Of a stretch of DNA of 51,673 bases, positions 3,090-29,572 are shown in pieces. A program made the translations under genes and the position numbers. The stretch is from Candidatus Planktophila lacus (lineage in GTDB: Bacteria; Pseudomonadota; Gammaproteobacteria; Steroidobacterales; Steroidobacteraceae), in assembly GCA_943331345.2 (NCBI GenBank), contig CALQLF020000012.1, forward strand, positions 1 to 51,673, read 5' to 3'. The notes under the pieces are model-generated. The model saw only the letters and a program-made list of their open reading frames with translations, did no database searches and was not told the DNA's origin. Each line of letters begins with the position of its first letter. Within the stretch, counting starts at the first letter, position 1.

Positions 3090-3100
3090 GGATCGGTCTG

Positions 3101-7619: not shown

Positions 7620-7652
7620 AAATCAACTGGCCGGGCATTCGCAATGCGGGAG

Positions 7653-12585: not shown

Positions 12586-14259
12586 ATGTCGTACGATAGG
12601 GTGAGCGATTTCATTGTCGTTGGCGCCGGTTCGGCAGGATGCGCATTGGCTTCCAGGCTAAGCGAAGATTCTCGTGTATCGGTGACGTTGCTTGAGGCCG
12701 GCCCGGACAACAGGTCATGGCAACTCGATATGCCCGCTGCGGTGGATCGTTTGCTTACTGGACGGCGATTCAATTGGGCGTACCAATCGGTACCCGAACC
12801 CCGCCTCAACGGACGCTCCATTGAGCATCCACGCGGAAAGGTGCTTGGAGGATCCTCCTCGATCAATGGAATGGTATACACGCGTGGCCATGCACTCGAC
12901 TTTGAGCGCTGGGAACATGAGTTTGGCTGCACGGGCTGGGGCTACGCGGATGTATTGCCCTACTTCAAGCGGTGCGAGTCGTCGGATCGGGGCACCAATC
13001 AGTACAGAGGCGGCTCCGGTCCATTGAAGGTCACGACTCCCTCACTGGAGTCCAGCTCCCTCAACAAGGCCTTCATTGAAGCCGGCGGCGAAGTGGGCTA
13101 TCCGCGAACTGATGACTCCAACGCCTATCAGCACGAAGGATTCTCGGTCAGCGAGCAAACGATTCATCAGGGTCGACGGTGTAGCTCCGCTAACGCCTAC
13201 CTCACTCATGAAGTCCGCCGGCGCGCGAATCTACGCATCCTGACTGGGGCCCATGCGCAGAAGATTCTACTCAAGGGCCGTAGGGCGGTGGGAGTTGAAG
13301 TCAGCTTCCAGGGGCAGCGTGTCGAGTTGGCTTGCCGCCGCGAGGTCATCCTTTGCGCCGGAGCAATCGGCTCCCCGGTTCTTCTGCAATTGTCAGGCGT
13401 AGGTTCGCCCGATGCACTGGCCGCAGCTGGCGTGACACCCTTGCACGATCTTCCTGGGGTTGGCCAGAACTTGCAGGATCACCCGGATTGGACATTGCAG
13501 GTGGAGTGCAAGCAGCCCGTCACCCTGTTGAGCGCCACGCGCCTTCCTGGCCGGATCGCTGCGGGTTTGCAGTGGTTCATGCGCAAGCGCGGGGTTGCCG
13601 CGAGCAACCAATTCGAGGCTGCGGCGTACATTCGCACCAGGGCGGGAATACGCTATCCGAATCTCAAGCTTGAGTTCCTGCCACTCGCTTTTCAACCTGG
13701 CACGTTTACGCCCTATCAGATGCCGGCGTTCCAGATTCACATGACGATGATGGCTGCCGAGAGCCGCGGGGAAGTCGGTGTGGTAGGGCCGGACCCGGCA
13801 ACTGCGCCGCGAATACAGTTCAACTACCTCGAGTCTGCGCAAGATCTGGCGACCATGCGTGATGCGATACGACTGACGCGGCAGATCGTTGCCAGCCGAG
13901 CGCTTGCGCCCTATAGCGGAAGTGAATTGCAGCCCGGCGACGCCGTGCAGACTGATGACGCCATGGACGAGTGGATTCGTGCGAATCTCAACACCGCTTA
14001 CCATCCTTCCTGCAGTTGCAAGATGGGACAACCGGGACGTGAGAATTCAGTCGTCGGCGTCGACCTGCGCGTGCACGGACTAGAGGGCTTGCGCGTAGCC
14101 GACGCCTCGATCATGCCCAGCGTGGTTGCGGCAAACATCAATGCGGCGTCGATCATGATCGGAGACCGTGCGGGCGACCTGGTGTTGGGGCGATCGCCGC
14201 TCGCGCCGGAGGTGGCTCCTTTCTGGGTAAATCCTGCATGGGAATCCAGCCAGCGCTAG
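12586..14259 (+). CDS. GMC-family FAD oxidoreductase (choline dehydrogenase-like)
   Basis: 557 residues. FAD-binding Rossmann motif DFIVVGAGSAGCALASRL at 8-25, GMC signature 1 region HPRGKVLGGSSSINGMVYTRG, signature 2 region CAGAIGSPVLLQLSGVG, and the catalytic histidine segment NTAYHPSCSCKMG near the C-terminus followed by LRVADASIMP. These enzymes oxidise primary or secondary alcohols, passing electrons to quinones or oxygen. No signal peptide, so cytoplasmic or membrane-attached. Third gene of the ALDH - permease - GMC operon, which looks like a transport-and-oxidise unit for an alcohol. The 335 bases after it hold no gene and lead to the regulator. Confidence 0.93.
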   Translation: MSYDRVSDFIVVGAGSAGCALASRLSEDSRVSVTLLEAGPDNRSWQLDMPAAVDRLLTGRRFNWAYQSVPEPRLNGRSIEHPRGKVLGGSSSINGMVYTRGHALDFERWEHEFGCTGWGYADVLPYFKRCESSDRGTNQYRGGSGPLKVTTPSLESSSLNKAFIEAGGEVGYPRTDDSNAYQHEGFSVSEQTIHQGRRCSSANAYLTHEVRRRANLRILTGAHAQKILLKGRRAVGVEVSFQGQRVELACRREVILCAGAIGSPVLLQLSGVGSPDALAAAGVTPLHDLPGVGQNLQDHPDWTLQVECKQPVTLLSATRLPGRIAAGLQWFMRKRGVAASNQFEAAAYIRTRAGIRYPNLKLEFLPLAFQPGTFTPYQMPAFQIHMTMMAAESRGEVGVVGPDPATAPRIQFNYLESAQDLATMRDAIRLTRQIVASRALAPYSGSELQPGDAVQTDDAMDEWIRANLNTAYHPSCSCKMGQPGRENSVVGVDLRVHGLEGLRVADASIMPSVVAANINAASIMIGDRAGDLVLGRSPLAPEVAPFWVNPAWESSQR

Positions 14260-14594: not shown

Positions 14595-15215
14595 ATGGCA
14601 AATGGAACCAGGACGACTGCGCGCGCGCAGCTGGCGGAACGCAAGCATACGTTGGTGCGGGACGAAATCCTTCTTTCGGCGACACGCTTGTTTGCCGAGC
14701 GCGGCTTTAGAGCCGTTTCAATGGACGACATTGCTGCGACGCTGGAATACACCAAGTCTGTCATTTACTACTACTTCAAGAGCAAGGGCCAGATCCTCTG
14801 GCAGATCGTCTGCCGTACGCTGGAGCAGTACCAAAGCGACATCGAAGAGATTCGAGCGCGAAAGGAGGATCCGGCAAAGACATTGCGGGACATGCTGCAC
14901 CAACATGCATTGCTCGTGATGAACCATTCGGAATGGTCGGCAATCTTCAACCGGGAAATGTCGGAACTTGCGCCTGCCCAGCAACAGCAGGTCAGCCGGA
15001 TGAAGCGCGTCTACGATGCGATGTTCTGGGAAACCTATCAAAGCGGGGTAGCGGCCGGAGCGTTTCGCGACCTCCCGGTGCACATTGTCATTGGCGGCAT
15101 GCTCGGCATGTGCAACTGGTTGTACACCTGGTACAACCCGAAGGGTCCGATGTCGGCGGAGGAAATTGCCAATCATTTCGTCGAGCTCGTCGTCGATGGC
15201 TGTCGTCAACACTAG
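14595..15215 (+). CDS. TetR-family transcriptional regulator
   Basis: 206 residues. N-terminal TetR helix-turn-helix at about 22-65: RDEILLSATRLFAERGFRAV, SMDDIAATLEYTKSVIYYYF, followed by KSKGQILWQIV. The C-terminal helical domain (EQYQSDIEEIRARKEDPAKT and onwards) would bind a small effector, often an acyl-CoA or the pathway substrate in catabolic members. AGGAG lies eight bases before the ATG. It is the only dedicated transcription factor seen in the 46-kb island. A dyad of the form GACY-N4-RGTC lies in its own upstream region and in front of most other transcription units, so it is the natural candidate for the island-wide repressor (inference). Followed 40 bases later by a thioesterase gene. 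Confidence 0.92.
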   Translation: MANGTRTTARAQLAERKHTLVRDEILLSATRLFAERGFRAVSMDDIAATLEYTKSVIYYYFKSKGQILWQIVCRTLEQYQSDIEEIRARKEDPAKTLRDMLHQHALLVMNHSEWSAIFNREMSELAPAQQQQVSRMKRVYDAMFWETYQSGVAAGAFRDLPVHIVIGGMLGMCNWLYTWYNPKGPMSAEEIANHFVELVVDGCRQH

Positions 15216-15255: not shown

Positions 15256-15711
15256 GTGAACCAGCACAAGACCACAACCTATCGAGGGGTCGTGTTTCCG
15301 GGGCAGTGCGATGCGATGGGGCACATGAATGTGCAGCACTACATCGCCGCCTTCGACCAGGCGATGTGGCACCTCGTTGCCGAACTCGGATACAGGGCTT
15401 CCTGGGCTGCCGATCGGCAGCAGGGATGGGCAGACGTCCGTTACTTGGTGAATTACCGGCGCGAATTGCGGGCTGGCGTACTCTTCCACGTCAGCAGCGC
15501 GGCGCAGAACGTCGGACGGACGTCGCTGACGACCTTTCATGAACTTGTCAATTCCGAGTCCGGCGAGATTGCGGCCGACTTGGAAATGAAATCGGTGTAC
15601 TTCGACTTGGGATCTCGAACAGCGATTGCGATTCCGGAGCAAATTCGCTCGGCGGTCGTCGCGCGAGGGGGCATCTCCGCGACTTCGTCAGCATCCGCAC
15701 AGAGCGGCTAG
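15256..15711 (+). CDS. Acyl-CoA thioesterase (hot-dog fold, 4HBT type)
   Basis: 151 residues. The 4-hydroxybenzoyl-CoA thioesterase signature is present near the start: VVFPGQCDAMGHMNVQHYIA, with the catalytic aspartate in the C-D-A-M-G-H-M-N pattern (usually W-x-D-x-D-x-x-G-H-x-N). The rest has the hot-dog beta pattern VRYLVNYRRELRAGVLFHV. It hydrolyses acyl-CoA thioesters, perhaps relieving CoA trapping by a dead-end intermediate. GTG is the likely start codon with only a weak ribosome site. Co-transcribed with the TetR regulator and ending tail to tail with the amidase. Confidence 0.88.
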   Translation: MNQHKTTTYRGVVFPGQCDAMGHMNVQHYIAAFDQAMWHLVAELGYRASWAADRQQGWADVRYLVNYRRELRAGVLFHVSSAAQNVGRTSLTTFHELVNSESGEIAADLEMKSVYFDLGSRTAIAIPEQIRSAVVARGGISATSSASAQSG

Positions 15712-15729: not shown

Positions 15730-17157
15730 TCAAAAGCTGGGATGGCGCATCTTCCACGGCAGATCTGTCTCAAGTTGCGCGGCGATCCGAAGGATCAAAT
15801 CCTCTCGCCCGTGCTGTCCGATCAATTGCACACCGATTGGCAGCCCGCCGTCCCAGTGTACCGGCACGTTGGCGGCCGGCTGTCCGGATGCGTTGCAGAT
15901 GGGCAGAAATGGGGTGTACCTTGAGATGGCTCGCCGAAATGACCGGAAGTCGGTGTCCGTACGCACGGTTCCCAGCGCAACTGGGGGCTGCGACAAAGTC
16001 GGTGTGAGCGCGAGGTCAAAGCCGGACAAATGTCGCGCACTCCGCCGGCCCACACTGTGAAAAGTGTTGATCGCCGAAACGTATCGTGCAGCGCTGATTG
16101 ACCGTCCAATTTCACACGCATCATACAGCGCAGGCTCCAGCGAAGCCCGCCACATGTCAGGCGCTTGGTCGCCAGTGATAGCCTGCGCCGTTGCAAACGC
16201 GTTCGTCGCCAACACATCGATCAATGCTTCAATGAGCAGCGCATAGTCGATTGGCGGGGGCGGTGTATCGATGACTTCGTGTCCTCGCGCTCTCATGGCT
16301 CCAACCGCGAGATCAACAGCCGAGACGCACGCTGGATGCAACTCGATGTCGTTCCACGCATGAGTCCAGCGCGCGATCCGCAGTGGGCGCTCGAAGGGTT
16401 GCGTCAGCAGTGCACAGTAGGATGCTGGCTGCGGGGGGGCGGCGTACGGCGCTCCGCTTTCATACCCGGCCATCGCATCCAGGGCCGCGGCGCTATCGCG
16501 AACGGACCGACTGATGACGCCTTCCGCGGCGAGTCCTCCCCATCCTTCGCCGCGGGCGGGCCCCATCGGTGTGAGGCCGCGCGAGGGCTTGAGTCCGAAC
16601 ACGCCACAGCAGGCAGCCGGTATGCGAATCGAGCCGCTGCCGTCGTTCGCGTGGGCCAGCGCGACGATCCCCGCGGCGACAGCGACGGCGGCGCCGCCGC
16701 TGGAGCCACCTGCCGAGCGCGAGCGATCCCAAGGATTGAGCGTAGGGCCACCATTGGCGACCGCTTCGGTGGTGGGCGCCATGCAGAATTCCGGCACGGT
16801 GGTTCGCGCAAAGGGGATGAGGCCGGCTGCCTCAAACCGCTCAAGAAGCGTTGCGTCAAACTTGAACTTCATGCCTTTGAGAAGGCGGGATCCTAGAGAA
16901 GCAGCAAACCGCTTGGAAGGGAGCGCGGAATCCTTGAGCAAGAAGGGCAGCGCGCCGAAGATTCCGCGAGGGTGCGCGCTGGCAGCCAACACTCGCGATT
17001 CCTCAAATTGCTCGTAGCACAGCGCGTTGAGCGGCACCCCCCGCTCTGCTGCAAGCTCTATCGCGCAGTCCATGAGTTCAAGAGCTGTGACCTGGCGATT
17101 GCGCAGGAGCGCCGAAAGATCAAGCGCGTCCATCCACTGGTATTCTTGTGCGTCCAT
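15730..17157 (-). CDS. Amidase (amidase-signature family)
   Basis: 475 residues. The Ser-cisSer-Lys triad can be placed: Lys75 in PFLLKDSALP, Ser152 in AGGSSGGAAV and Ser176 in NDGSGSIRIPAACCGVFGLK. This family hydrolyses amides to acid and ammonia or amine in the cytoplasm. Substrate range is wide and cannot be predicted from motifs. Last gene of the minus-strand operon RidA - dehydrogenase - amidase, 25 bases after the dehydrogenase. Together with RidA, which removes reactive imines, it points to nitrogen-containing intermediates in the pathway. Confidence 0.93.
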   Translation of the reverse strand: MDAQEYQWMDALDLSALLRNRQVTALELMDCAIELAAERGVPLNALCYEQFEESRVLAASAHPRGIFGALPFLLKDSALPSKRFAASLGSRLLKGMKFKFDATLLERFEAAGLIPFARTTVPEFCMAPTTEAVANGGPTLNPWDRSRSAGGSSGGAAVAVAAGIVALAHANDGSGSIRIPAACCGVFGLKPSRGLTPMGPARGEGWGGLAAEGVISRSVRDSAAALDAMAGYESGAPYAAPPQPASYCALLTQPFERPLRIARWTHAWNDIELHPACVSAVDLAVGAMRARGHEVIDTPPPPIDYALLIEALIDVLATNAFATAQAITGDQAPDMWRASLEPALYDACEIGRSISAARYVSAINTFHSVGRRSARHLSGFDLALTPTLSQPPVALGTVRTDTDFRSFRRAISRYTPFLPICNASGQPAANVPVHWDGGLPIGVQLIGQHGREDLILRIAAQLETDLPWKMRHPSF

Positions 17158-17182: not shown

Positions 17183-18235
17183 TCAGCGTAGGGCGTCGAC
17201 CACGGCGCTGCCTACTTCTGCCGTCGAGGAGGATCCGCCCTGGTCTGGCGTAAGAAGGCGTCTTTCAGCGGTCACCGACTCGATGGCGCGCAAGATCGAA
17301 TCGGCGGCCGCGGTCTCTCCCAAGTGCGAAAGCATCATCGAGCCTGCCCAGATGGCAGCAAGCGGGTTGGCGATGCCCTGGCCAGCGATGTCGGGTGCAG
17401 ACCCATGAACAGGCTCGAACATCGACGGCACGTCTGACGATGGGTTCAGATTCGCGGAGGCCGCGAAGCCGAGGCCACCTTGAATTGCTGCTCCGAGGTC
17501 GGAAAGGATGTCACCGAACAAGTTGGAGGCAACGACGACATCCAGGGACTCCGGGTGCGTGACAAAGCGCGCGGCAATCGCATCGACGTGGTAGCGCGTG
17601 GCGCGGACGTCAGGAAACTCTGCCGCGACCTCCTCTGTAATTTCGTCCCACAACACCATCGAGTGGCGTTGCGCATTGGATTTTGTGACCGACGCCAGCC
17701 GGCCAGAACGCTGGCGCGCCCGCTCAAATCCATATCGCAGAATATTGGTGATGGCGCGGCGAGTGAATACCGAAGTTTCTACAGCCACTTCGCTCGACGT
17801 GCCCACGTGCACCCTGCCACCCGCCCCTGCATACTCGCCTTCGGTGTTCTCGCGAATGCAGAGGATGTCGAACTTGTCTTTGCGAAGTGGGCTTTGCGTG
17901 CCTGGCAGCAGCCGATGCGGGCGCTCGTTCACGAACAAGTCAAACTTCTTGCGAATCGGCAACAGCAATCCGTGCAATGACACGCTGTCAGGGACCGTTT
18001 GCGGCCAGCCGACCGCGCCGAGGAAGATCGCATCGAACTGCGACAGTTGCGACAGCCCGTCTTCCGGCATCATTCGTCCGTGCTGCTCAAAGTAGCGGCA
18101 CGACCAGGGAAACAACTCGCCTTCCAGCGTGAAATGCTGTCGCGATGCGGCTGCCTTCAACACGGTCCATGCGGTGTCCAGCACTTCGGTGCCAACGCCG
18201 TCACCTGGAATCAGCGCGATGCGATGCGCCCTCAT
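17183..18235 (-). CDS. Tartrate/D-malate-type dehydrogenase (isopropylmalate dehydrogenase family)
   Basis: 350 residues of the NAD-dependent beta-decarboxylating dehydrogenase family. Entry motif RIALIPGDGVGTEVLD, substrate-loop region RENTEGEYAG, and the signature SNLFGDILSDLGAAIQGGLG followed by ANLNPSSDVPSMFEPVHGSAPDIAGQ. The combination fits tartrate dehydrogenase/decarboxylase and D-malate dehydrogenase better than leucine biosynthetic enzymes. It would oxidise a 2-hydroxyacid with a 3-carboxyl group and release CO2. In this context it may handle a hydroxy-diacid released by the neighbouring amidase or lyase (inference). Middle gene of its operon. Confidence 0.88.
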   Translation of the reverse strand: MRAHRIALIPGDGVGTEVLDTAWTVLKAAASRQHFTLEGELFPWSCRYFEQHGRMMPEDGLSQLSQFDAIFLGAVGWPQTVPDSVSLHGLLLPIRKKFDLFVNERPHRLLPGTQSPLRKDKFDILCIRENTEGEYAGAGGRVHVGTSSEVAVETSVFTRRAITNILRYGFERARQRSGRLASVTKSNAQRHSMVLWDEITEEVAAEFPDVRATRYHVDAIAARFVTHPESLDVVVASNLFGDILSDLGAAIQGGLGFAASANLNPSSDVPSMFEPVHGSAPDIAGQGIANPLAAIWAGSMMLSHLGETAAADSILRAIESVTAERRLLTPDQGGSSSTAEVGSAVVDALR

Positions 18236-18259: not shown

Positions 18260-18649
18260 TCAGGGGACAACGGCGACTACCTCTACCTCGATGCGCATGC
18301 GCGGGTCATACAGCGCCGCTACACCCAAGATGACGCTCGCGGGAGGGGTTGTTTGCGAAAGATAACGCGATCGGACCCGCCTGATGATCTCCATCAGGGC
18401 CGGCTCATAGTGGGTGACATAAGTGGTGACCCGGATGATGTGTTCGAAGCCCAAACCGGCAGCGCGGAGCGTCCTGTCGATGTTTTCATACACCGCGATG
18501 GTTTGCGCTTCAAAGTCGTCACTGACGACTTCCCCGTCCTCGCCGGTTGGCATCTGACCAGAGGTGACCAGAATGCCGGTACCGCTCGCCACTACCGCCT
18601 GGGAGACGCCCGGCCACGCCATCCCTGGAGGATTAACAGGTTTGAGCAT
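18260..18649 (-). CDS. RidA-family protein (reactive imine/enamine deaminase)
   Basis: 129 residues. Typical RidA pattern: GILVTSGQMPTGEDGEV, EAQTIAVYENIDRTLRAAGL, IIRVTTYVTHYEPALMEIIR and the ending TTPPASVILGVAALYDPRMRIEVEVVAV. In classic RidA the arginine and glutamate near the C-terminus (PxRxxxE) bind the substrate; here PRMRIEVE is present. The protein releases ammonia from imines or enamines in the cytoplasm. The ATG at 18649 is chosen because AGAGGA lies about eight bases upstream; the open frame farther up reads through the AT-rich promoter region. First gene of the RidA - dehydrogenase - amidase operon. Confidence 0.88.
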   Translation of the reverse strand: MLKPVNPPGMAWPGVSQAVVASGTGILVTSGQMPTGEDGEVVSDDFEAQTIAVYENIDRTLRAAGLGFEHIIRVTTYVTHYEPALMEIIRRVRSRYLSQTTPPASVILGVAALYDPRMRIEVEVVAVVP

Positions 18650-18889
18650 CTTGAATCCTCTTGAAAGACGTATAAGACAGAAAAACGTACTATACAGGAT
18701 AATCGGGTATTCAGCCGCTCTCGCGCGCACCGGCTTGCATCCGCGAGGGACCGGTGCCGCAATGGTTCAAGGGACTTGACTGGCGAGTCGAAATTGTAAA
18801 ACATGCGGTGTGAGAGAGTGTTGTCACAACGCCGCGACCCCAAGTGATGCTGCACTGCATGGGGGCGAGGCACTACGCGTAGCGCCACC
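18650..18889. promoter_or_regulatory. Divergent regulatory region with shared operator (18778-18789)
   Basis: 240 bases between RidA (minus) and the deacetylase gene (plus). The perfect dyad GACT-GGCG-AGTC lies at 18778-18789 and overlaps TTGACT (18776-18781), a good -35 for the plus strand, with TAAAAC at 18797-18802 as a weak -10. The AT-rich part near RidA (TATAGT on the minus strand) may be its own promoter. Confidence 0.6.
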
Positions 18890-19732
18890 ATGACACATGT
18901 ATGTCTGACCTTCGATTTTGATGCTCTCGCCATTTGGGTGAGTACGTTCAAGCAAACTACGGCTTCTCCGCTGTCGCGCGGCGAGTTCGGGGCGCAGGTG
19001 GGACTGCCCCGTGTACTGGAGCTGCTACGCCGCAAGTCCATACGCGCCACGTTCTTTGTTCCTGCACATACCGCCGTGAGCTTTCCGGAGCGTGTCCAGA
19101 AAATTCTCGAGGATGGCCATGAAATCGGTTCGCATGGCTATTGTCATGAGTCTCCGGTGACGTTGGTTGACGGGGAAGAGGTTCGGCTGCTTACGGCAAG
19201 TATTGAAAAGATGCAGAAAGTATTGGGTAGCGCGTTTCGTCCCGTGGGCTACCGGTCGCCGGCCTGGGATCTCTCCAGCCAGTCGATCGCCATCCTTCAA
19301 GAGCAGGGCTATCTCTATGACAGCAGTCTCATGGGCGGCGATTTCGAGCCCTATCGCCCACGGCGAGGGGATCGCATCGACGAGCATGGATTCGAATTGG
19401 GAGCTGAGAGTTCGCTCGTTGAACTACCGGTCTCATGGGAACTGGACGACTACCCGTACTTTCATTTCTCCAGCCGGCCGCTGAACCAAGGATTGCGCTC
19501 GACGGATGAGGTGCGAGCACTGTGGCAGGCAGAGTTTGACTATTGTCATCAGCATGTGCGCAACGGCGTATTCACGCTGACCAATCATCCCGAGATCATT
19601 GGCCGTGGTCCGCGCATCGCGATGCTTGAAGAACTGATCGACCATCTCGGGAGCAAGCCTGGCGTCACCTTCAGTACATGCAGCGACGCTGCGCAAACGT
19701 GGCGCGAGGCGCATCCGGAGTCGCGCCAATGA
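18890..19732 (+). CDS. Polysaccharide-deacetylase-fold hydrolase (PuuE/NodB-like)
   Basis: 280 residues with a NodB-homology domain. Motif 1 is TFDFDA (aspartates 9 and 11; the classic form is TFDDG), motif 2 HEIGSHGYCHE with the metal histidines 82 and 86, motif 3 YRSPAW at 121-126. No signal peptide, so it works in the cytoplasm and is unlikely to act on cell-wall sugar. Cytoplasmic relatives of this type (the metal-independent allantoinase PuuE group and related cyclic-amide or N-acyl hydrolases) open ureide or amide bonds. The stop overlaps the next start (ATGA), so it is coupled to a CoA ligase and a citrate-synthase-fold lyase. Confidence 0.85.
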   Translation: MTHVCLTFDFDALAIWVSTFKQTTASPLSRGEFGAQVGLPRVLELLRRKSIRATFFVPAHTAVSFPERVQKILEDGHEIGSHGYCHESPVTLVDGEEVRLLTASIEKMQKVLGSAFRPVGYRSPAWDLSSQSIAILQEQGYLYDSSLMGGDFEPYRPRRGDRIDEHGFELGAESSLVELPVSWELDDYPYFHFSSRPLNQGLRSTDEVRALWQAEFDYCHQHVRNGVFTLTNHPEIIGRGPRIAMLEELIDHLGSKPGVTFSTCSDAAQTWREAHPESRQ

Positions 19733-21294
19733 CGCATCCGGCACTTCCGGCAGTCACCGTCTATGATCGATTGCGCCATGTCGCTGCTGCGCGGCCCGAT
19801 GCCTGTGCGCTGGAGTTTCAAGACCAATCCTTTACCTACGCGGACATTCTTGAGTTGGTTGAGCGGGCGGCCGCGCTGCTGCGCTCGGCCAGCATTGGCT
19901 TTGGCGACGCGGTGGTCTCGTACGCGACGAACTCGCCAGATCTTCTATTCGTCTATTTTGCCGCGGCAAAGCTCGGCGCAGTCTACGTGCCGGTAAACCC
20001 GAACATGTCTGCCGCGGAGGTGGGCTACATCTACGGTCACAGCGATGCCAAGCTGCTTCTGCATGACTCGCTGGCGGCCGGCGTTGCCGAGAGACTCGTC
20101 CCGACTCAGTGCCGCCAATTGCTATCCAACGTAACAGCGACGACGGTGCCCGAAGAGGCCAACCTGCCACCTTGTGGTGCGGTCAGCAGAAAGACGGACT
20201 TTCTCATCTGCTACACCTCGGGATCAACGGGCGCGCCGAAAGCAGTGGTGCTCGATCATGGATCGCAAGTGGATGTTTGCGCGAGCTTGAGTGAATTCTG
20301 GGGTTTGACGGAATCGGATGTCACGTTGGTGGCTCTTCCCCTGGGCTATCTGTTTGGCCTGACGACCGCCTCGGCCGCCGGACTACTGTCAGGAGGTAGT
20401 GTCGTTCTATTGCCCAAGTACCGGCCTAGTGATGTGCTTGAGGCGATGATCGCGAGGCACGCAACGATATTTCACGGGGTCCCGACGATGTTTACGATGA
20501 TGCTCGAGTATGTTGAGCAGAATCGTGCCTCATTCGACTTGTCGGCCGTGCGGCAATTGATTTGTGCCGGCGCGCCGCTCCCCGAGGAGATTGCTCAGCG
20601 GTTCGCAAGGACATTTGGCAAGCCCTTGCGGAACTACTACGCTGCCACCGAGTGCTCGCCAGTCATTGGTCATCCCGATGCTCATTCACGAGCGCTTCCG
20701 CCTGGCAGTATTGGTTGCTTGGCACCCGGAGCCGAGGTGCGCATCGTATCTGCGGAGGGGCATGATTGCCCGGTCGGGGTGGAAGGCGAATTCTACGTGC
20801 GTGGCGCCGCCACGATGAATCGATACCTCAAGAATCCGGAGCTGACCGCCACAGCGCTCAGCGGGGGTTGGTTTCGCACGGGAGATCTGGGCCAGGTTGA
20901 TGCCGCGGGGTATTACTTCATCACCGGACGGATCAAGGACACCATCTTTCGTGGCGGCGCCAATATCGCACCGGCAGAAGTGGAGGCGGTTCTTAGCACT
21001 CACCCGGACGTGGCCAACGTTGCGGTCGTGGGGGCGCCCGACAAGATCTATGGGGAAGTGCCAGTCGCGTACATCGTTCCGCGCGGTGATTCACGGCCGG
21101 GGGAGCAGGCGTTGATCAGCCACGCTCAGGCCTCTCTCGCGGATTTCAAGATTCCGCGACATTACGTGCTCGTCGGTGGCCTGCCACTTGGAAAAACGGG
21201 GAAGATCGATAAATCGGCGCTCAAGGCCGCGTGGGCGCTACCTGACCATGGTGCCTGCTCATTCTCCAGCAATGTGGAAGATCGCCAGAAATGA
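19729..21294 (+). CDS. Acyl-CoA synthetase (AMP-forming), copy 2
   Basis: 521 residues. ANL motifs: CYTSGSTGAPKAVVL at 161-175, YAATECS at 304-310, RTGDLGQVDAAGYYFITGR and IFRGGANIAPAEVEAVL, ending with LPLGKTGKIDKSALK. It makes a CoA thioester from a free acid. The ATG at 19729 is chosen over one farther upstream in frame, because it overlaps the deacetylase stop as ATGA, while the upstream one lies well inside that gene. The next start also overlaps (21291), so deacetylase, ligase and lyase are translationally coupled, which suggests equal amounts and consecutive steps. Confidence 0.92.
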   Translation: MTHPALPAVTVYDRLRHVAAARPDACALEFQDQSFTYADILELVERAAALLRSASIGFGDAVVSYATNSPDLLFVYFAAAKLGAVYVPVNPNMSAAEVGYIYGHSDAKLLLHDSLAAGVAERLVPTQCRQLLSNVTATTVPEEANLPPCGAVSRKTDFLICYTSGSTGAPKAVVLDHGSQVDVCASLSEFWGLTESDVTLVALPLGYLFGLTTASAAGLLSGGSVVLLPKYRPSDVLEAMIARHATIFHGVPTMFTMMLEYVEQNRASFDLSAVRQLICAGAPLPEEIAQRFARTFGKPLRNYYAATECSPVIGHPDAHSRALPPGSIGCLAPGAEVRIVSAEGHDCPVGVEGEFYVRGAATMNRYLKNPELTATALSGGWFRTGDLGQVDAAGYYFITGRIKDTIFRGGANIAPAEVEAVLSTHPDVANVAVVGAPDKIYGEVPVAYIVPRGDSRPGEQALISHAQASLADFKIPRHYVLVGGLPLGKTGKIDKSALKAAWALPDHGACSFSSNVEDRQK

Positions 21295-22106
21295 CCGCGA
21301 AAGATACGCCTGCCTTCTGGACCAGCCAGATCAGCGACATCGCCGCCGAGGATGTGTACATCCGCGGCTATCCGCTTCAGCTGTTGATGGGCCGATTGTC
21401 CTTTTCTGCCACGACATTCCTCATGATCCGCGGCCGGCTGCCGACGCCCGGCGAAGTACGCATGATGGATGTGGTGCTGTGTTCGATTCTCGATTACGCG
21501 TTGCACAAGTCCGGAACGGCGGCCGCCAGGTTCGTCGTCTCGGTCAATCCGCAGATGGCTCCCGGTGTCGCGGCGGGCATGCTGGGCTCGGGTGCCTATG
21601 CGATGTCGCCGGAAGACACCGGCCGCTTCATCATCGATAGCTATGCGCAGTGGTCCCGGTCCGGACTGTCGATGGATGATTGCGCGACCCAGTTGGTTTC
21701 CGAACTAAGGCGCCAGAAGGCCCGGGTGCCAGGCTTTGGCCATCCCGTATTCCGCACGGTGGACCCGCGTGCGCAGAAGCTCCGCGACGTTGCAGTTGCC
21801 GAAGGTGTATGGGGGCGCTTCGGGGAATGGTACGAGGCTGTACACCGTGCATTTTGCACTGCAGTAAACAAGCCTGATCTGGTCATCAATGACATGGGGA
21901 TGTTGGCGGCCCTTCTGGCGCAGATGGAGTTTACGCCGGAGGAAATGACCGGCCTGGCGCTCCTGTCGACCTTGCCGGGTCTGATTGCGCACGTTTCCGA
22001 AGAGCTCAGGAGCGGGGTGCGCAATCGGATCGTTCCGGATGCAATCGTCGAATACGCGAAGTCCCGAAGGGATTTGGACGCCGACTTGGCTGAGGCCGGC
22101 TGGTAG
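21291..22106 (+). CDS. Citryl-CoA-lyase-like protein (citrate synthase superfamily)
   Basis: 271 residues, much shorter than citrate synthase (about 370-430) and in the size range of stand-alone citryl-CoA-lyase-like proteins. PGFGHPVFRTVDPRAQKL holds the conserved active-site histidine (His151) of the GxGH motif. The other citrate-synthase histidine (HGG motif) is not visible: MLGSGAYAMSPEDTG stands in the expected region. It likely cleaves or condenses an acyl-CoA at a carbon next to a carboxylated hydroxyl centre, releasing acetyl-CoA or a like unit. Coupled by ATGA to the preceding CoA ligase, which would feed it. The exact reaction is open. Confidence 0.8.
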   Translation: MTAKDTPAFWTSQISDIAAEDVYIRGYPLQLLMGRLSFSATTFLMIRGRLPTPGEVRMMDVVLCSILDYALHKSGTAAARFVVSVNPQMAPGVAAGMLGSGAYAMSPEDTGRFIIDSYAQWSRSGLSMDDCATQLVSELRRQKARVPGFGHPVFRTVDPRAQKLRDVAVAEGVWGRFGEWYEAVHRAFCTAVNKPDLVINDMGMLAALLAQMEFTPEEMTGLALLSTLPGLIAHVSEELRSGVRNRIVPDAIVEYAKSRRDLDADLAEAGW

Positions 22107-22394: not shown

Positions 22395-23189
22395 ATGAAA
22401 ATTGATCTGACAGGTCGATCAGCTGCAGTGACAGGCGGCGAGACCGGTATTGGGCTGGGCATTGCCCGATCATTGGCACTGGCCGGAGCCCACGTCCTCA
22501 TCGGCGGGATTCTCGAGGACGAGGGCGCCCGCGCCGTCGCAGAGATCCACGCCCTTGGAGGGCGGGCGGAGTTCCTGAAGACTGATGTGCGGCATGCTGC
22601 CCAGGTAGAAGCGCTGGTGGACGCAGCGGCAGCCGCGACCGGCAAAGTAGACATCGTGGTCAACAACGCAGGCGTCTTTGACGGGTTCGCCAGCTGCCTC
22701 GAGACATCGGAGCGGCTCTGGGATCAGGTGATTGATATCAACCTGCGGGGCGTGTTCTTTGGCTGCCAGGCTGCCCTGCGCCGGATGGTGCCACAGGGCT
22801 ACGGCCGCATCATCAATACCTCCTCGGTCGGCGGCCTGCGGGGTTCGGCTGATGGGCTCGCCTACACCGCCTCTAAATGGGGAATCATCGGGTTGACGAA
22901 GCAGGCAGCCTGCGTCTATGCCGAGAACGGAATCACGATCAACGCCATTTGCCCTGGCGTGATCGCGACTGAGATCCGCAAGAACTCTGGAATAGTGTTG
23001 GGCGCTGACGCACCGAACATGCAGCGCGGTGTCGGCGTGGACCCCGAATCTTTCAAGAAGAACGTGCCCGCGAAACGTCGCGGGTCCCCTCAAGAAGTCG
23101 GGGACGCGGTGGTCTTTCTCGCATCCGAGCAGGCCGGTTACATCAATGGGCAGGCCCTGGCCATTGATGGTGGCTGGACGGCGACCTGA
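22395..23189 (+). CDS. Short-chain dehydrogenase/reductase (SDR), copy 1
   Basis: 264 residues, classical SDR. Cofactor motif TGGETGIGLGIA from residue 13, NNAG at 90-93, catalytic Ser in NTSSVGG and Tyr157/Lys161 in YTASK. NAD(P)H-dependent oxidation or reduction of a hydroxy/keto group; with the MaoC hydratase 54 bases downstream it would fit the 3-hydroxyacyl-CoA dehydrogenase step. It has its own upstream region and is the only island unit in front of which no good copy of the shared dyad was found. Confidence 0.92.
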   Translation: MKIDLTGRSAAVTGGETGIGLGIARSLALAGAHVLIGGILEDEGARAVAEIHALGGRAEFLKTDVRHAAQVEALVDAAAAATGKVDIVVNNAGVFDGFASCLETSERLWDQVIDINLRGVFFGCQAALRRMVPQGYGRIINTSSVGGLRGSADGLAYTASKWGIIGLTKQAACVYAENGITINAICPGVIATEIRKNSGIVLGADAPNMQRGVGVDPESFKKNVPAKRRGSPQEVGDAVVFLASEQAGYINGQALAIDGGWTAT

Positions 23190-23243: not shown

Positions 23244-23732
23244 ATGTCTGCTTCCGTTAGCATCCGCAGCCCAAGTTCTGTGGGCCCAAATGCACGCTAT
23301 TTTGACGATTTCGCGGTGGGTGACGAGTGGACCTCACCCCGTCGTACGATCTGTGAAGCAGATGTCGCGACTTTCGCCGGCTTCTCTGGCGACTACAATC
23401 CGATTCATACGGATGAAGAGTATGCCAAGACCACGATTTTCGGCGGACGCATCCTGCATGGTCCTGCGGGGTTCGCCATCGCGTGCGGTCTCGAGTTTCG
23501 ACTCGGCATCAAGGACGGGACGGCCACGGCCTTCCTGGGCATGACGTGGGATCTAAAGGGCCCGATCCGGATTGGCGACACGATCCACGTGTACCAGCGT
23601 GTCACCTCGAAGCGCGAGACCAAGAAGGCCGATCAAGGGATCGTGAACTTCCATGTCGTGCTTCGAAACCAACGCAATGAGACCTTGCAGGAAGGCGAGT
23701 GGAAGATCATGTTCTTGCGCAGGACTACTTGA
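23244..23732 (+). CDS. MaoC-family dehydratase (enoyl-CoA hydratase-like)
   Basis: 162 residues, single hot-dog domain. The hydratase-2 signature is clear: FAGFSGDYNPIHTDEEYA at 45-62, holding the catalytic Asp50 and His55, followed by KTTIFGGRILHGPAG. It adds water to a 2-enoyl-CoA or removes it from a 3-hydroxyacyl-CoA (R-type). Downstream of the SDR with an AAGGAA ribosome site. No acyl-CoA dehydrogenase is encoded anywhere in the island, so the enoyl-CoA would come from another route. Confidence 0.92.
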   Translation: MSASVSIRSPSSVGPNARYFDDFAVGDEWTSPRRTICEADVATFAGFSGDYNPIHTDEEYAKTTIFGGRILHGPAGFAIACGLEFRLGIKDGTATAFLGMTWDLKGPIRIGDTIHVYQRVTSKRETKKADQGIVNFHVVLRNQRNETLQEGEWKIMFLRRTT

Positions 23733-24971: not shown

Positions 24972-26132
24972 TCATGTGTTGTACTCGCCGGCCACCCAGC
25001 GGCGCTCCGACGCCCAGTCAGACGAGAGGCTGGCAAATCGGTCGAGCGACAAACTCTCAACCGGAATGGAGGGGGCTGCCCCCAGTGCCAATTCGCCGAT
25101 CACCCTGCCCAGCGCAGGTGCCAGGCCAATTCCGTGGCCCGATGCGCTGGCGATAATCAGCCCCTCGGGGGCCTTGGCGCGCTCTAGAATGCAGGCGTGA
25201 TCGGGGGAAACCTCGACGATGCCCGCCCACGTTCTCAGCAGGGGAACGCTCTTCAGGTTCGGGAGCAACTCCAGCAATCGGCGCGCCTCGCCCTGAACGA
25301 TGGCCGAGGTAGGCTTTGCCGGCTCGGAAGTCAGGTCCACATCGACCCATTCATGCGGGCCACCGCAGAACAAGATGTTGCCGCGGCCTGTCTGCCTGAC
25401 GGAAAGCCCATTGGCGACCATCGCCGTGCTGAAAAGCGGCGGGACCGGCGCGGTAATGCAGGCCTCGAGGCGAGCTGCAACGAGCGGAACATCGATGCCG
25501 ATCGATTTGGCCAAAAGTGGGGTCTGGGGTCCTGCACAAATAACCACCGACTTCGCGCCAACGATGCCGGCGGTGGTTCGGACACCCACCACGCGATCCT
25601 GTCTGACCTCGATGCCCAGCGCCGGGGTCAGCTCCCGGATGATCCCCCCTCGATCGCGACAGGCCCAGCCGAAGGCCTGGGTCGTGCGCTGCGGATTGGC
25701 ATGACCACCGCGCTCGGTGAACAAGCCGCCGACTACGCGATCGGTCAGCGCTGGCACGAGTTCTCGCACTTCGGCGGCGTCAATCATGCGCACCGGCAGC
25801 TGATGCGACTGCCAGAGTGCCGCCGTGCGTCGAAAATCGGCGAGTTCTTCGTCATTGAGCGCCACCCACAATCGACCGCTCGGGGTCCATTCGGTCGGGT
25901 AGCCCAGTTCTTCATCCAATGTGTGCCACAGATCGTTCGCGACCGCTGCCAGCGGGATCTCCGGGGGATTCTCTCCGCGCAGACTCTGGAAGCCCATGGC
26001 ACGCGAGGAGGCTTCGTAGCCGACCCGACCCTTGTCAAGGATCAGCACGCGCGCGCCCTGCCGCGCGATCGAATAGCCAGCAGATAGTCCCAGGACACCC
26101 GCGCCGATAACCACTACATCATAATTTTCCAC
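24972..26132 (-). CDS. FAD-dependent amine oxidase/dehydrogenase, DAO family (HcnC/SoxB-like)
   Basis: 386 residues. N-terminal FAD motif YDVVVIGAGVLGLSAGYSIA and the DAO-family C-terminal block TWAGIVEVSPDHACILER and IIASASGHGIGLAPALGRVI, the segment that closes over FAD. Relatives oxidise secondary or N-methylated amines and amino acids (sarcosine, glycine, opines). GTG start with a GGGGAAA site. It follows by 27 bases a second flavoprotein carrying a [2Fe-2S] motif, the partner arrangement of opine oxidase, hydrogen cyanide synthase (HcnB-HcnC) and proline dehydrogenase complexes. A small third subunit (HcnA/SoxX type) is not seen. Electrons most likely go to the EtfAB pair of the same operon (inference). 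Confidence 0.88.
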   Translation of the reverse strand: MENYDVVVIGAGVLGLSAGYSIARQGARVLILDKGRVGYEASSRAMGFQSLRGENPPEIPLAAVANDLWHTLDEELGYPTEWTPSGRLWVALNDEELADFRRTAALWQSHQLPVRMIDAAEVRELVPALTDRVVGGLFTERGGHANPQRTTQAFGWACRDRGGIIRELTPALGIEVRQDRVVGVRTTAGIVGAKSVVICAGPQTPLLAKSIGIDVPLVAARLEACITAPVPPLFSTAMVANGLSVRQTGRGNILFCGGPHEWVDVDLTSEPAKPTSAIVQGEARRLLELLPNLKSVPLLRTWAGIVEVSPDHACILERAKAPEGLIIASASGHGIGLAPALGRVIGELALGAAPSIPVESLSLDRFASLSSDWASERRWVAGEYNT

Positions 26133-26159: not shown

Positions 26160-27647
26160 TTAGCCCATTTCGCCTTCATTGAGAGGCTGAAACCAAATGG
26201 GCCACGTGCGAGATACCGCCTCTGATTCGTCCGGTCCGGCGATCGCGCTCAGCGGAAGCGGGCGAACCGGGGCGCGGAAACTCCCCGGCACAATCGACCC
26301 AACAGGCTGCCCGTTTGCGTGGGCCAGGAGCAGGGCCGCGTGGTCTCGGCACCTCCTACCTTGGCAGTGTCCCATGCCGCACCGCGTCATCCGCTTCACG
26401 AAGTCCTGGCTTGCGCGGTTGGATGCATCGATGGGCCCGGCGCGGCGCCGCTCACTCGGCTGCAGATAGCGAGGCGCTTCAAGGGCAATGTACTCGCCGC
26501 GCGTGACTTCCTCGCATTGGCAAAGGACCACCGAAAGGCCGCCTTGAGCCAGCAGCGCACGCAGCCACTCGTTCGGTGCATCGGCCGCCAAGGGTGCCGC
26601 GGCGCTCGCCGTCGTCGGCTTCCATTCCGCTCCCTGGGGCGTGCCGATGGCCACGGCAGCACGACGAGCCCGCTCGAGATGCTGGACGGAATCCAGCACA
26701 CCTTTGTCACACACCCCAGCGGCTTCACCCACGACATAGATGTGCTCCAGGCTGGAGCGTCCACAGTCGTCCGTTTCGGGAACCCAGCCGCCGCGAGCAG
26801 CGTCGTAGGTAGCCTTGCAGCCACTTTGCGCCGCGAGTTCAAGGTTGGGGACCACACCAATTGCAATGCAGACGGTGTCGCAATCAATGCACTCCTCGGA
26901 CCCCGGTACGGGCAGGCCTTGTTGATCGAGGGCACAAACGCGCACGGCACGGACTTGCTGCTCGCCGATCGCCGAATCGATGACGGACGAGGTATGAAAG
27001 GCCACACCGGCGGCGACCAGCCCGGCTTGCAACGCGGGATCGCCGCGCACGCTGGCAGCCACCTCCACCACGGCCGCCACTTCGATCCCTGCATCGAGGA
27101 GTTGGCGGGCGAGCCGAAGGCCCACATTTCCGGAGCCCAGCACCACAGCCTTGGTGCCACCCAAGGCCTGATAGCGGGTCAATAGTGCGCCGGCGGCCTG
27201 TGCACCAAGGACTCCTGGCAGCTGCCATCCGGGAAACGACAGGACCAGGTCCCGCGCTCCGGTTGCAATGATCAAGTCGTCGTAGGGCAGGAACCAGGAT
27301 CGTTCCCCATCTGCCAAGCCCAGCCGCTTCTCATCGGTGTACAGCAGATTCGGACCTGGCATCAGGTTCGCCCACACGCAGGTGTTGGTGAGGACTTCCA
27401 CGCCGGCGTCCAGGCAGTCCAGCAGCAACGCATTGGCGCCCAGCACCCGGTCGGCGACCGCGCCTGCATCCGAGAGCGTTGCGGGCAGGCGCGCGCCATA
27501 AAAGTATGGTGCGTCAAGGCTCATGCTCGACGGCGCCTGGGGATGCTCGTCAATGAGGGTGACGTTGAAGTCTCTCTTCGCCGCTTCCAAGGCGGCACAA
27601 CATCCGGCCAGTCCGGCGCCGATGACCACGACTCGATGCGAATTCAT
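26160..27647 (-). CDS. FAD/NAD-binding oxidoreductase with [2Fe-2S] domain (HcnB/SoxA-like)
   Basis: 495 residues. Two dinucleotide-binding folds: RVVVIGAGLAGCCAALEAA at the start and KAVVLGSGNVGLRLARQLL near 180. The C-terminal part carries an iron-sulfur motif, CQCEEVTRG then CGMGHCQGRRC, the pattern of the BFD-like [2Fe-2S] domain of opine oxidase A and HcnB. The ATG at 27647 is used because FAD-fold homology starts exactly there; the frame stays open farther upstream into etfA with unrelated sequence. With the following DAO protein it forms a heteromeric amine dehydrogenase. Stands directly behind etfA (10 bases). Confidence 0.88.
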   Translation of the reverse strand: MNSHRVVVIGAGLAGCCAALEAAKRDFNVTLIDEHPQAPSSMSLDAPYFYGARLPATLSDAGAVADRVLGANALLLDCLDAGVEVLTNTCVWANLMPGPNLLYTDEKRLGLADGERSWFLPYDDLIIATGARDLVLSFPGWQLPGVLGAQAAGALLTRYQALGGTKAVVLGSGNVGLRLARQLLDAGIEVAAVVEVAASVRGDPALQAGLVAAGVAFHTSSVIDSAIGEQQVRAVRVCALDQQGLPVPGSEECIDCDTVCIAIGVVPNLELAAQSGCKATYDAARGGWVPETDDCGRSSLEHIYVVGEAAGVCDKGVLDSVQHLERARRAAVAIGTPQGAEWKPTTASAAAPLAADAPNEWLRALLAQGGLSVVLCQCEEVTRGEYIALEAPRYLQPSERRRAGPIDASNRASQDFVKRMTRCGMGHCQGRRCRDHAALLLAHANGQPVGSIVPGSFRAPVRPLPLSAIAGPDESEAVSRTWPIWFQPLNEGEMG

Positions 27648-27657
27648 TCTGCGGGCC

Positions 27658-28641
27658 TCAAGTGTCGATCTGGGACTTCCGGATCTCGCGCAACCGCTGG
27701 GTGAGGGCGGGAACGACCATCGCGGCGTCCCCGATGACCCCCAGCTGAGCCACCTTGAAGATCTCGGCTTTTGGGTCGATGTTGATGGCGACGATCGCCT
27801 TGGCCTGGGAGATACCTGCCAAGTGGTGCAGGGCACCCGAGATGCCGATGGCGATGTAAAGCTGCGGCGCAACCTTGACACCGCTGTATCCGACTTGCTG
27901 GCTGTAAGGGGCCCAGCCGGACTCGACGACGGCTCGGCTCGCACCGACGGCAGCATCGAGGGTCTGCGCAAGCTCCGTGATCAGACCCCAGTTGCCACGA
28001 TTGCCGACGCCCAACCCGCCCGAGACGACGATGCTGGCTTGCTTCAGCGGCGGGCCCTCGCTTGTAGTGGCGAGCACCTCCTCAATCAAGGAAAGCGCGG
28101 GCGCTGGGAGGTTGGCCTCAATACGCCGTATTGGCGCGGCAGGCGCTGGCGCGCAGGCCTTATGTACGCCCGTCGTCAAGCTGAGGACCGCCGTGTCCTT
28201 CGCAACCTCATACTCAGCGCCAATCGCGCCGCCGCAGATCATCTTGGTCGCCACGACGGCACCATCGAAAGCCACCGCCTGACAATCCATGACGATTCCA
28301 GCGTCGAGCTGCGACGCAACGAGCGGCAGCCATTCCGGAGTGTCCGAGGTATGCGGGACGAGGACGACCCTGGCCTCGCACGCCACTGCAACTGCGATGA
28401 CTTGAGCTGCGATGCGGTCGGGGGTGAGCATCGGCGCGGATTGCTCCGCTACGACGAGAACCTCCTCTACCCCCAACTGGCCCATCTGGGCCAGAAATGA
28501 CGCCTCGGCGGGGCCCGCGACGGTCCCAACGACTGGCAGTTGCATCGCAGCGCCCAACTCGGCCGCAAGGGCGGCGACTTCGCGGGTGCCGGGGTGAACG
28601 GCACCTTGCTCGATCGGGCCCACGATGAGAATGCGAGCCAT
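27658..28641 (-). CDS. etfA: Electron transfer flavoprotein alpha subunit
   Basis: 327 residues. The C-terminal FAD domain is clear: VVSGGLGVGNRGNWGLITEL, AVGASRAVVESGWAPYSQQV, GYSGVKVAPQLYIAIGISGA and AIVAINIDPKAEIFKVAQLG. Family role: carries electrons from flavin dehydrogenases to the quinone pool by way of ETF-quinone oxidoreductase, which is not encoded here. Starts inside the etfB stop (TGATG overlap), so the two subunits are coupled. No acyl-CoA dehydrogenase is nearby; the adjacent amine-dehydrogenase-type flavoproteins are the likely electron donors, as known for sarcosine and dimethylglycine systems. Confidence 0.93.
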   Translation of the reverse strand: MARILIVGPIEQGAVHPGTREVAALAAELGAAMQLPVVGTVAGPAEASFLAQMGQLGVEEVLVVAEQSAPMLTPDRIAAQVIAVAVACEARVVLVPHTSDTPEWLPLVASQLDAGIVMDCQAVAFDGAVVATKMICGGAIGAEYEVAKDTAVLSLTTGVHKACAPAPAAPIRRIEANLPAPALSLIEEVLATTSEGPPLKQASIVVSGGLGVGNRGNWGLITELAQTLDAAVGASRAVVESGWAPYSQQVGYSGVKVAPQLYIAIGISGALHHLAGISQAKAIVAINIDPKAEIFKVAQLGVIGDAAMVVPALTQRLREIRKSQIDT

Positions 28642-29432
28642 CAGACGAGCGCGTCAGCGCGCAGCCGATCCGCCAGCAGCCGACCGGCGTCGGCGGCCGA
28701 TCCCGCAGCAATGAACTCGGTGGTCGAAACCGCCATTGGAGGCACGAAAAGACGCCGTATCCGCAGCGCGGCAGGTGACAAGCCAATGCCGAGGTCCGCC
28801 AACGTCAGCGTAGGAATGAACGCGCGCTTGGCCATTGCGACGCCTTTGAGTTGCGGCGTGCGGGGCTTGTTGGCCTCGTTTGATACGCCGAGAACCACGG
28901 GCCCGCTGACCCGGAATCGTCGGAAGCCCGCATCCGTGATCCGCTCCACTACCAGCGAGCCATCCTCTTCCCTTGCTACGGAGCGCACCGGCGTGAGCAT
29001 CGGCAAGCCCAGGTTGGCGGCGATGAGAGCGGCAACGACGCCCGCGTCGGTGTCGGATGCCGATCGGCCCGCGAGCACCAGTCTGACCGCCGCAAGGGTC
29101 TTGATCGCAGCCGCAAGGATATGCGCGGTAAGCACCGCATCGCCGGAAACGCCGGAATCTCCGGGTACCAACACCGCCTTGTCTGCCCCCATCGCCAAGG
29201 CGCGGCGCAGCACGTCCGTGGACTGTTCCGCACCCAGGCACAACGCCGTCACAACCGCGCCGTGCTTCTCCTTCAGGCGCAGCGCCTCTTCGAGTGCGTT
29301 GGCGTCGTAACCGTTGAGAATGGGATTTGAACCGGCCATCAACGCCAAGGAACGGCCATCCGCGCCAATTCGCAGTGCACTGCGTGGAAGATTGGGGTCG
29401 TGGACTTGCTTCAGCAGTACGACAATGTTCAT
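28641..29432 (-). CDS. etfB: Electron transfer flavoprotein beta subunit
   Basis: 263 residues. Typical start MNIVVLLKQVHDPNLPRSAL, then NGYDANALEEALRLKEKHGA and LAGRSASDTDAGVVAALIAA, the AMP-binding and recognition loops of EtfB/FixA. The ATG at 29432 is chosen because the family starts there; the open frame upstream reads through the promoter region. First gene of the five-gene operon etfB - etfA - HcnB-like - HcnC-like - oxidoreductase. Two operator-like dyads lie in the divergent region in front. Confidence 0.93.
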   Translation of the reverse strand: MNIVVLLKQVHDPNLPRSALRIGADGRSLALMAGSNPILNGYDANALEEALRLKEKHGAVVTALCLGAEQSTDVLRRALAMGADKAVLVPGDSGVSGDAVLTAHILAAAIKTLAAVRLVLAGRSASDTDAGVVAALIAANLGLPMLTPVRSVAREEDGSLVVERITDAGFRRFRVSGPVVLGVSNEANKPRTPQLKGVAMAKRAFIPTLTLADLGIGLSPAALRIRRLFVPPMAVSTTEFIAAGSAADAGRLLADRLRADALV

Positions 29433-29514
29433 AGCTGTAGGCCGTCGAGCAGGAGGAGGAATCGGCGCCACCGAGAGCATCTTATCCTTGAAAAACCTTA
29501 AGGTCCAGCAATTA

Positions 29515-29526
29515 GACCGATGAGTA
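29515..29526 (+). promoter_or_regulatory. Candidate shared operator, etfB side
   Basis: GACC-GATG-AGTA, one mismatch from GACY-N4-RGTC, preceded by AATTA exactly as at 49112-49116. It lies 83 bases upstream of the etfB start and could repress the Etf operon. Confidence 0.45.
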
Positions 29527-29572
29527 TCGAATTTGCGCGTGGTCATGGGGCACCGCAGCGGCACTCGCACGC

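Follow-up and report, generated by a model that had tools for sequence, protein, structure and literature searches.

A hydrolase, a ligase and a citrate-synthase-fold protein as candidate steps in the degradation of a nitrogen heterocycle

What is accomplished by three overlapping genes that encode a NodB-fold hydrolase, an AMP-forming acyl-coenzyme A (CoA) ligase and a short protein of the citrate synthase fold? The genes lie within a stretch of 51,673 nucleotides (the window), which covers positions 1–51673 of contig C12 (CALQLF020000012.1) of its assembly and is probably the entire contig. The initial annotation, made from the sequence letters, read the three as a pathway in fixed order, in which an amide or ring is opened, the resulting acid is activated as its CoA ester, and the ester is cleaved into acetyl-CoA and a keto acid. 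Here, we propose, with about even confidence, that they form part of a larger catabolic route for a nitrogen heterocycle, in which they would open the ring, activate the product and cleave a carbon–carbon bond. The whole gene set, which is built from known families with one unusual enzyme subfamily, is larger than the triad and apparently undescribed; no description of it was found in the open-licence papers searched.

The conservation of the triad was examined first through the lyase-like protein. An alignment of this protein alone was used to scan a collection of species genomes and gave 39 loci, of which 29 belonged to the subfamily of the window protein (48.6–65% identity). Together with the window (L001) and three plasmids, they made up the 33 sources (genomes, plasmids or loci) over which the counts below were taken. 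A relative of the hydrolase was found in all 33 (43–66% identity, window aside); in 27 it lay within the fetched flank, and the remaining six had it at another place in the genome. The ligase had a homologue in 30 sources; it was absent from L048 and from L039 and L074, where the contig or flank stops close to the module. Thus, the conserved co-occurrence for which the initial annotation had suggested a search was observed. The sources belonged to the Alpha-, Beta- and Gammaproteobacteria and the Actinomycetota, with many soil bacteria among them, and conjugative Rhizobium plasmids, from plant-associated bacteria, were also included.

Where the lyase family was represented by other members (35 genomes), no hydrolase match exceeded 41% identity; this value was the best in the six genomes with canonical lyase relatives, four of which had no match at E 0.001. 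A phylum-wide sample of 398 genomes contained 50 with a match to the NCBIfam family NF004869 at E 1e-25. The hydrolase was looked for in 29 of the 49 besides the window's own genome; four had a match at E 1e-30, and no identity exceeded 40%. At the level of the class (369 genomes), the lyase subfamily was confined to the own genome (two other matches at E 1e-40 were 34% identical), and the hydrolase was found at E 1e-70 in the own genome and three others (44–46%). Both the lyase subfamily and the hydrolase are rare, and they co-occur far beyond chance. The association is one-way, that is, the lyase subfamily implies the hydrolase. The model NF004869 was rejected as a marker of the system, because the only other genome of the 398 over its cut-off carried an N-V-D-G protein; that genome had no hydrolase match at E 1e-30.

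The overlaps described in the initial annotation were confirmed: ATGA stands at both joints, and the start ATG of each following gene shares bases with the preceding TGA stop. A longer frame of the ligase opens at 19678. Four-base overlaps are frequent in bacterial operons and are weak proof by themselves. The claim of a fixed order had to be given up. All three genes shared a stretch at 24 loci. Among these, the ligase and lyase-like genes abutted only in the window and were 1.0–17.2 kb apart in the other 23, as measured between tblastn segments; the hydrolase and ligase genes were at most 60 bases apart in 12 of the 24.

The lyase-like protein matched Citrate_synt of Pfam (3.1e-21) and the 'citryl-CoA lyase' model NF004869 (301.8 bits, cut-off 212). 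Its nearest solved sequence was the stand-alone citryl-CoA lyase of Hydrogenobacter thermophilus (6hxp, 4e-34), which it resembled in fold, size, the GxGH histidine and the DPR arginine. The superposition of its AlphaFold model on 6hxp was loose (template modelling (TM) score 0.77, root-mean-square deviation 13 Å) and therefore supported the fold alone. Both 6hxp and the citrate synthases in the alignment carry the motif N-V-D, whereas N-V-D-G is replaced by N200-D201-M202-G203 in the window protein. The form N-[DE]-[VM]-G, with no Asp at the canonical catalytic position, occurred in all 33 distinct members of the subfamily. It was absent from the 33 other relatives that the alignment contained (14 had N-x-D-G and the rest mainly Ser forms) and from 29 additional relatives drawn from the phylum sample. 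The alignment excluded matches of 60 bits or less, and the scan patterns that retrieved the loci did not include this motif. His151 (GxGH) and Arg160 (DPR), which we take to be the keto-acid-binding positions of citrate synthase, were invariant. Judging from the alignment, the acid appears to have shifted one residue earlier in this subfamily. The partner also differed from that of 6hxp. The partner of a citryl-CoA lyase is presumably a citryl-CoA synthetase of the succinyl-CoA-synthetase type, whereas the adjacent activating enzyme here is AMP-forming, and no Pfam match of the succinyl-CoA-synthetase type was listed for the 40 window open reading frames (ORFs) scanned (30 of these at E 1e-8).

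Since the catalytic Asp is absent from its usual place, the name 'citryl-CoA lyase' should not be kept without an assay, and the last step suggested in the initial annotation, the release of acetyl-CoA and a keto acid, is weakened. The retained acid one position earlier and the invariant His151 and Arg160 still speak for it. Another reaction of the CoA ester (e.g., hydrolysis, isomerisation or condensation) that releases no acetyl-CoA was considered unlikely. Asp1026 of ATP-citrate lyase presumably corresponds to the missing position. This residue is essential and its role is debated: the accumulation of citryl-CoA by the D1026A mutant would agree with such another reaction, and the argument that Asp1026 acts allosterically would speak against it (PMC10115795).

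The hydrolase was assigned by Pfam to Polysacc_deac_1 (2.9e-15). HP0310 was its closest solved relative both in sequence (3qbu, 2e-52) and in predicted fold (TM 0.86), followed in fold by 3rxz and the PuuE type, and chitin, xylan and peptidoglycan deacetylases scored below these. The mean predicted local distance difference test values of the two modelled proteins were 84.4 and 81.2. All 22 sequences compared, that of the window among them, kept D9, D11, H82 and H86 (presumably the metal-site Asp-His-His), and these positions coincided with the same residues in 3qbu. No signal peptide was seen on inspection by eye. The fold neighbours, the gene partners and the absence of a signal peptide by eye led to the rejection of a sugar or peptidoglycan deacetylase as the main reading. 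HP0310 itself has been related to cyclic imidases rather than to sugar-acting enzymes; it is described as having no polysaccharide groove and no activity on the polysaccharides tested (PMC3084791). It is also the closest structural relative named for the fungal enzyme HxnM, which opens 3-hydroxypiperidine-2,6-dione before HxnN hydrolyses the half-amide (PMC9304392). The imidase kinship and the co-occurrence beyond chance support the initial annotation in part, and the lack of conservation by which it would have been refuted was not borne out. In a tree of 42 hydrolases, from which L039 was left out as too short, the lyase-associated sequences formed a proteobacterial group of 24 (support 90/88) and an actinobacterial group of 7 (support 100/100), plus one lone sequence. 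The relations between these groups were unsure, so the pairing of hydrolase and lyase may have had one or two origins.

The triad is not the pathway as the initial annotation had assumed; other genes regularly accompanied it. An amide hydrolase was present in 24 of the 33 sources, either an amidase (17) or a member of the unrelated nitrilase-type family CN_hydrolase (7), never both. The MaoC-like hydratase was detected in 28, the SDR oxidoreductase in 29 and, often, an acyl-CoA dehydrogenase (15). The Asp/Glu/hydantoin racemase family (PF01177) followed with 16, a CrtO-like flavoprotein with 12, a sarcosine-oxidase-like enzyme and the electron transfer flavoprotein (ETF) quinone oxidoreductase (ETF-QO) with 10 each, adenylate kinase with 9, a polar amino acid ABC ATPase with 8, and γ-aminobutyrate (GABA) transaminase and succinate-semialdehyde dehydrogenase (SSADH) with 4 each. 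Presence was scored with trimmed queries and identity limits, and some queries came from the loci themselves and are thus self-matching. A looser count gave 25 for the amide hydrolase, 14 for the acyl-CoA dehydrogenase, 7 for GABA transaminase and 8 for SSADH, compared with 24, 15, 4 and 4 under the strict one, differences too small to alter the assessment. Nine control loci with canonical lyase relatives contained an acyl-CoA dehydrogenase in 4 and MaoC in 2 by the strict count (7 and 4 by the looser one); several of them were short (5.8–10.8 kb), and six of their genomes, that of L066 excepted, were searched whole for the hydrolase. L068, from the same strain as L034, and the fragment L075 were excluded from the controls. 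Within the CoA part, the ligase matched AMP-binding (1.8e-81) and AMP-binding_C, its best NCBIfam model was PRK06187 (385 bits, cut-off 476), and none of the best 25 of 106 matched models reached its cut-off. With the RipB/Ich model (cut-off 340), the MaoC protein reached 36.1 bits.

From gene families and gene partnership, the following route may be drawn (Table 1). Amine dehydrogenases coupled to ETF and aided by RidA would convert the ring to a cyclic imide or lactam, which the HP0310/PuuE-type hydrolase would open. The amidase, or a nitrilase-family enzyme in, e.g., Pseudomonas and Paraburkholderia, would take off the remaining amide nitrogen to leave a substituted succinate- or glutarate-type acid, and the ligase would convert this acid into its CoA ester. 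Where needed, an acyl-CoA dehydrogenase would produce the enoyl-CoA, and hydration by the MaoC hydratase would yield a 3-hydroxyacyl-CoA of the citramalyl or citryl type. The citrate-synthase-fold protein would then cleave this product by means of the acid one residue before the usual place; acetyl-CoA and a 2-oxo acid are the most likely fragments. If the acid were a 2-substituted succinate, the route would pass through a 2-substituted malyl-CoA to acetyl-CoA and a 2-oxo acid. The earlier scheme of opening, activating and cleaving was right in outline, but amide hydrolysis and hydration were missing from it. The genes themselves, their conservation, their partnership and the shifted residue are demonstrated here, whereas the activities and the kind of substrate are predicted.

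Several observations weigh against this proposal. The amide hydrolase was absent from nine of the 33 sources (five Arthrobacter, L048, L039, L052 and L074), although the contig or flank ends early in L039, L052 and L074. The acyl-CoA dehydrogenase was missing from the window and 17 other loci. Hydrolases as distant as the actinobacterial partners (43–46% identity) were likewise present without the lyase subfamily, in three genomes of the class and at the plasmid loci L035 and L036 (none within 9 kb). HP0310 was inactive also on allantoin, N-acetylated amines and dipeptides (PMC3084791), which leaves the chemistry of the clade itself unproven. The missing canonical Asp, discussed above, bears on the last step. 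Finally, the racemase and nitrilase families also fit a hydantoin-type substrate.

For a hydantoin or ureide, the hydrolase would be a hydantoinase-type ring opener, the racemase homologue would epimerise the ring, and the nitrilase or amidase would remove the carbamoyl group; the freed amino acid would be oxidised by the amine dehydrogenases with RidA, and the CoA genes would degrade its carbon chain. The racemase family has hydantoin and allantoin racemases among its nearest solved relatives, and the CN_hydrolase protein weakly matched N-carbamoylputrescine amidase, far under the cut-off. DdaH of the iprodione pathway, which opens a hydantoin ring hydrolytically, was reported from Paenarthrobacter strains YJN-5 and YJN-D (PMC9869045). 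The plasmids of both strains carry a 42–43%-identical hydrolase, which may correspond to DdaH; near the copy on the YJN-D plasmid (43%), no lyase subfamily member or ligase was found within 9 kb. However, the racemase was absent from the fetched sequence of the window and 16 other loci, and the CoA part suggests no particular hydantoin. A hydantoin or ureide is an improbable substrate. A role of the hydrolase as a small-molecule N-deacetylase (e.g., of an N-acetylated amine), next to a ligase–MaoC–lyase set degrading an unrelated acid, was judged less probable still: it would suit the Pfam family, but HP0310 and the PuuE-type allantoinases are the nearest relatives, and the partnership with the CoA genes is constant and that with an amide hydrolase usual. 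Least of all is the triad alone likely to be a complete pathway, since its genes are adjacent and overlapping in this order only in the window and a hydratase and an amide hydrolase are its usual partners.

The degradation of a nitrogen heterocycle through imide or lactam opening has partial parallels in known systems. The nicotinate pathway of Aspergillus nidulans likewise uses an HP0310-like imidase and then an amide hydrolase to lead from ring to half-amide to acid; it ends in 2-hydroxyglutarate, and the passages covered place neither a CoA ligase nor a hydratase nor a citrate-synthase-fold lyase after these steps (PMC9304392). By analogy, the two-step logic of HxnM and HxnN would be present here with two interchangeable families of amide hydrolase. 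The second parallel concerns the CoA part. In the degradation of itaconate via citramalyl-CoA, an unsaturated diacid is activated by a CoA transferase, hydrated by a MaoC-type itaconyl-CoA hydratase and cleaved to acetyl-CoA and a 2-oxo acid by a citramalyl-CoA lyase of the CitE fold. That route has no imidase, whereas MaoC and ligase families are combined here with a lyase of another fold; no HpcH/HpaI-family match was listed for the 40 window ORFs scanned. In Mycobacterium INA1, isonicotinate is degraded via citrazinate and a 2,6-dioxopiperidine, a cyclic imide that is opened to a tricarboxylic acid. An isonicotinate pathway was considered and rejected, because no molybdenum hydroxylase of the xanthine dehydrogenase type was listed among the 40 ORFs of the window that were scanned, and the open-licence papers searched included none on it.

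An alkaloid-like substrate, which may derive from plants, is suggested by the amine dehydrogenases, RidA, the esterases, the pair of GMC-family and aldehyde dehydrogenases and, at four loci, GABA transaminase and SSADH. Pyrrolizidine-type ester alkaloids were considered on the basis of the esterase, the GMC/aldehyde dehydrogenase pair, the amine dehydrogenase and the Rhizobium GABA transaminase and SSADH, and they would fit on paper. Other clues gave little: one transporter binding protein (L052) was nearest to general binders of polar amino acids, a match to 'Epimerase OpaE' concerned a fungal peptide epimerase, and neither ten single genes around the module nor seven more gave a clear indication. 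In its full form, the proposal would be a widely transferred pathway for a natural alkaloid-like nitrogen heterocycle, running from imide or lactam to 2-substituted succinate and malyl-CoA, with cleavage by the acid-shifted lyase subfamily; this specific version is tentative, at somewhat less than an even chance.

The three Rhizobium plasmids were the top records of the plasmid collection for both the hydrolase (57–59%) and the lyase-like protein (54–62%), and all three were typed as conjugative. They shared with the window the triad, the amidase, RidA, SDR, ETF and nitronate-monooxygenase-family genes, and two of them also had the same MaoC and two-subunit amine dehydrogenase. In tetranucleotide composition, three chunks of the window correlated at 0.70–0.74 with eight stretches of 20 kb on other contigs of its assembly, compared with 0.91–0.97 among those stretches. 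This indicated that the contig is foreign, i.e., a plasmid, an island or mis-binned, and so the assembly is an unsafe guide to the host.

The labels 'polysaccharide deacetylase' and 'citryl-CoA lyase', the only annotation that such genes carry in rhizobia, pseudomonads, Arthrobacter and others, are probably both wrong, and the proposal offers a testable function in their place. If true, it would extend the known degradation of nitrogen heterocycles by a route in which imide or lactam opening is followed by hydration and cleavage, and it would supply a naturally occurring case of acid relocation in an enzyme of the citrate synthase fold.

Table 1. Features of the window, with occurrence among the 33 sources where counted.
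Feature	Position	Strand	Remarks
Aldehyde dehydrogenase near GMC gene	9571..10995	+	67% identical in Rhizobium NZLR1
GMC-family alcohol-dehydrogenase-type flavoprotein	12586..14259	+	8/33
TetR regulator	14595..15215	+	Pfam; 18/33
4HBT-type thioesterase	15256..15711	+	Pfam; 11/33
Amidase-signature enzyme, proposed half-amide hydrolase	15730..17157	-	PF01425 4.6e-77; amidase 17/33
Tartrate/isopropylmalate dehydrogenase-like enzyme	17183..18235	-	TIGR02089 535.9 bits, cut-off 470.4; 5/33 including window
RidA-family protein (imine or enamine hydrolysis)	18260..18655	-	PF01042; 23/33
NodB-fold hydrolase, HP0310/PuuE type	18890..19732	+	280 aa; Polysacc_deac_1; proposed cyclic imide or lactam hydrolase
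AMP-forming acyl-CoA ligase	19729..21294	+	521 aa from ATG at 19729; AMP-binding
Citrate-synthase-fold lyase-like protein, displaced-acid subfamily	21291..22106	+	271 aa; Citrate_synt
SDR oxidoreductase, core member	22395..23189	+	Pfam; 29/33
MaoC-like hydratase, core member	23244..23732	+	PF01575 5.5e-23; 28/33; proposed enoyl-CoA hydration
DAO-family amine dehydrogenase subunit	24972..26132	-	PF01266 1.2e-65; sarcosine-oxidase-type relatives; 10/33
Pyridine-nucleotide/FAD subunit, beside DAO subunit	26160..27971	-	10/33
ETF alpha subunit	27658..28641	-	15/33
ETF beta subunit	28641..29579	-	14/33
Nitronate-monooxygenase/FabK-family flavoprotein	29651..30763	+	PF03060 8.8e-45; 20/33
Carboxylesterase, accessory	39426..41111	+	family in 7/33
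Second carboxylesterase, same family, accessory	47389..49065	-	–

Some of these neighbouring genes deserve comment. Relatives matched the pyridine-nucleotide/FAD subunit only from residue 98–107, so its true start is probably further in. The nitronate-monooxygenase-family protein shared 72% identity with two Rhizobium copies. It has Ser (EAGGS) in place of the His (ESGGH) of its best solved relative, and thus the family name may not fit it; an Arthrobacter copy (L056) retains the His. Near the two carboxylesterases, a hydrolase of the Peptidase_S15/PepX_C type, an architecture that we take to be cocaine-esterase-like, was located at 49277–51208 of the window. In L032, a 52-residue match (267–318) to the tartrate-dehydrogenase-like enzyme was found between the RidA and hydrolase genes.

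Further observations came from the other loci. The Rhizobium plasmids L031, L032 and L033 carried the genes of GABA transaminase and SSADH in the same region, and L031 and L033 also had a cupin of the dimethylsulfoniopropionate lyase family and an adenylate kinase there. In the five Arthrobacter loci (L053–L057, at about 2200–3100), an adenylate-kinase-like gene stood beside the hydrolase gene and perhaps recycles AMP from the ligase. In L064, L067 and L070 (Deltaproteobacteria), canonical N-x-D-G relatives lay about 5 kb or less from acyl-CoA-dehydrogenase-like genes in a locus without the hydrolase, which is perhaps another use of the dehydrogenate–hydrate–cleave block. The ORFs for SDR, acyl-CoA dehydrogenase and hydrolase in L084 overlapped by four bases. 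In L039, from a Fuscovulum metagenome-assembled genome, the lyase-like gene was followed at 6449–8590 by a dimethylglycine-dehydrogenase-type protein (DAO/FAO_M/GCV_T), hinting at an N-methyl substrate.

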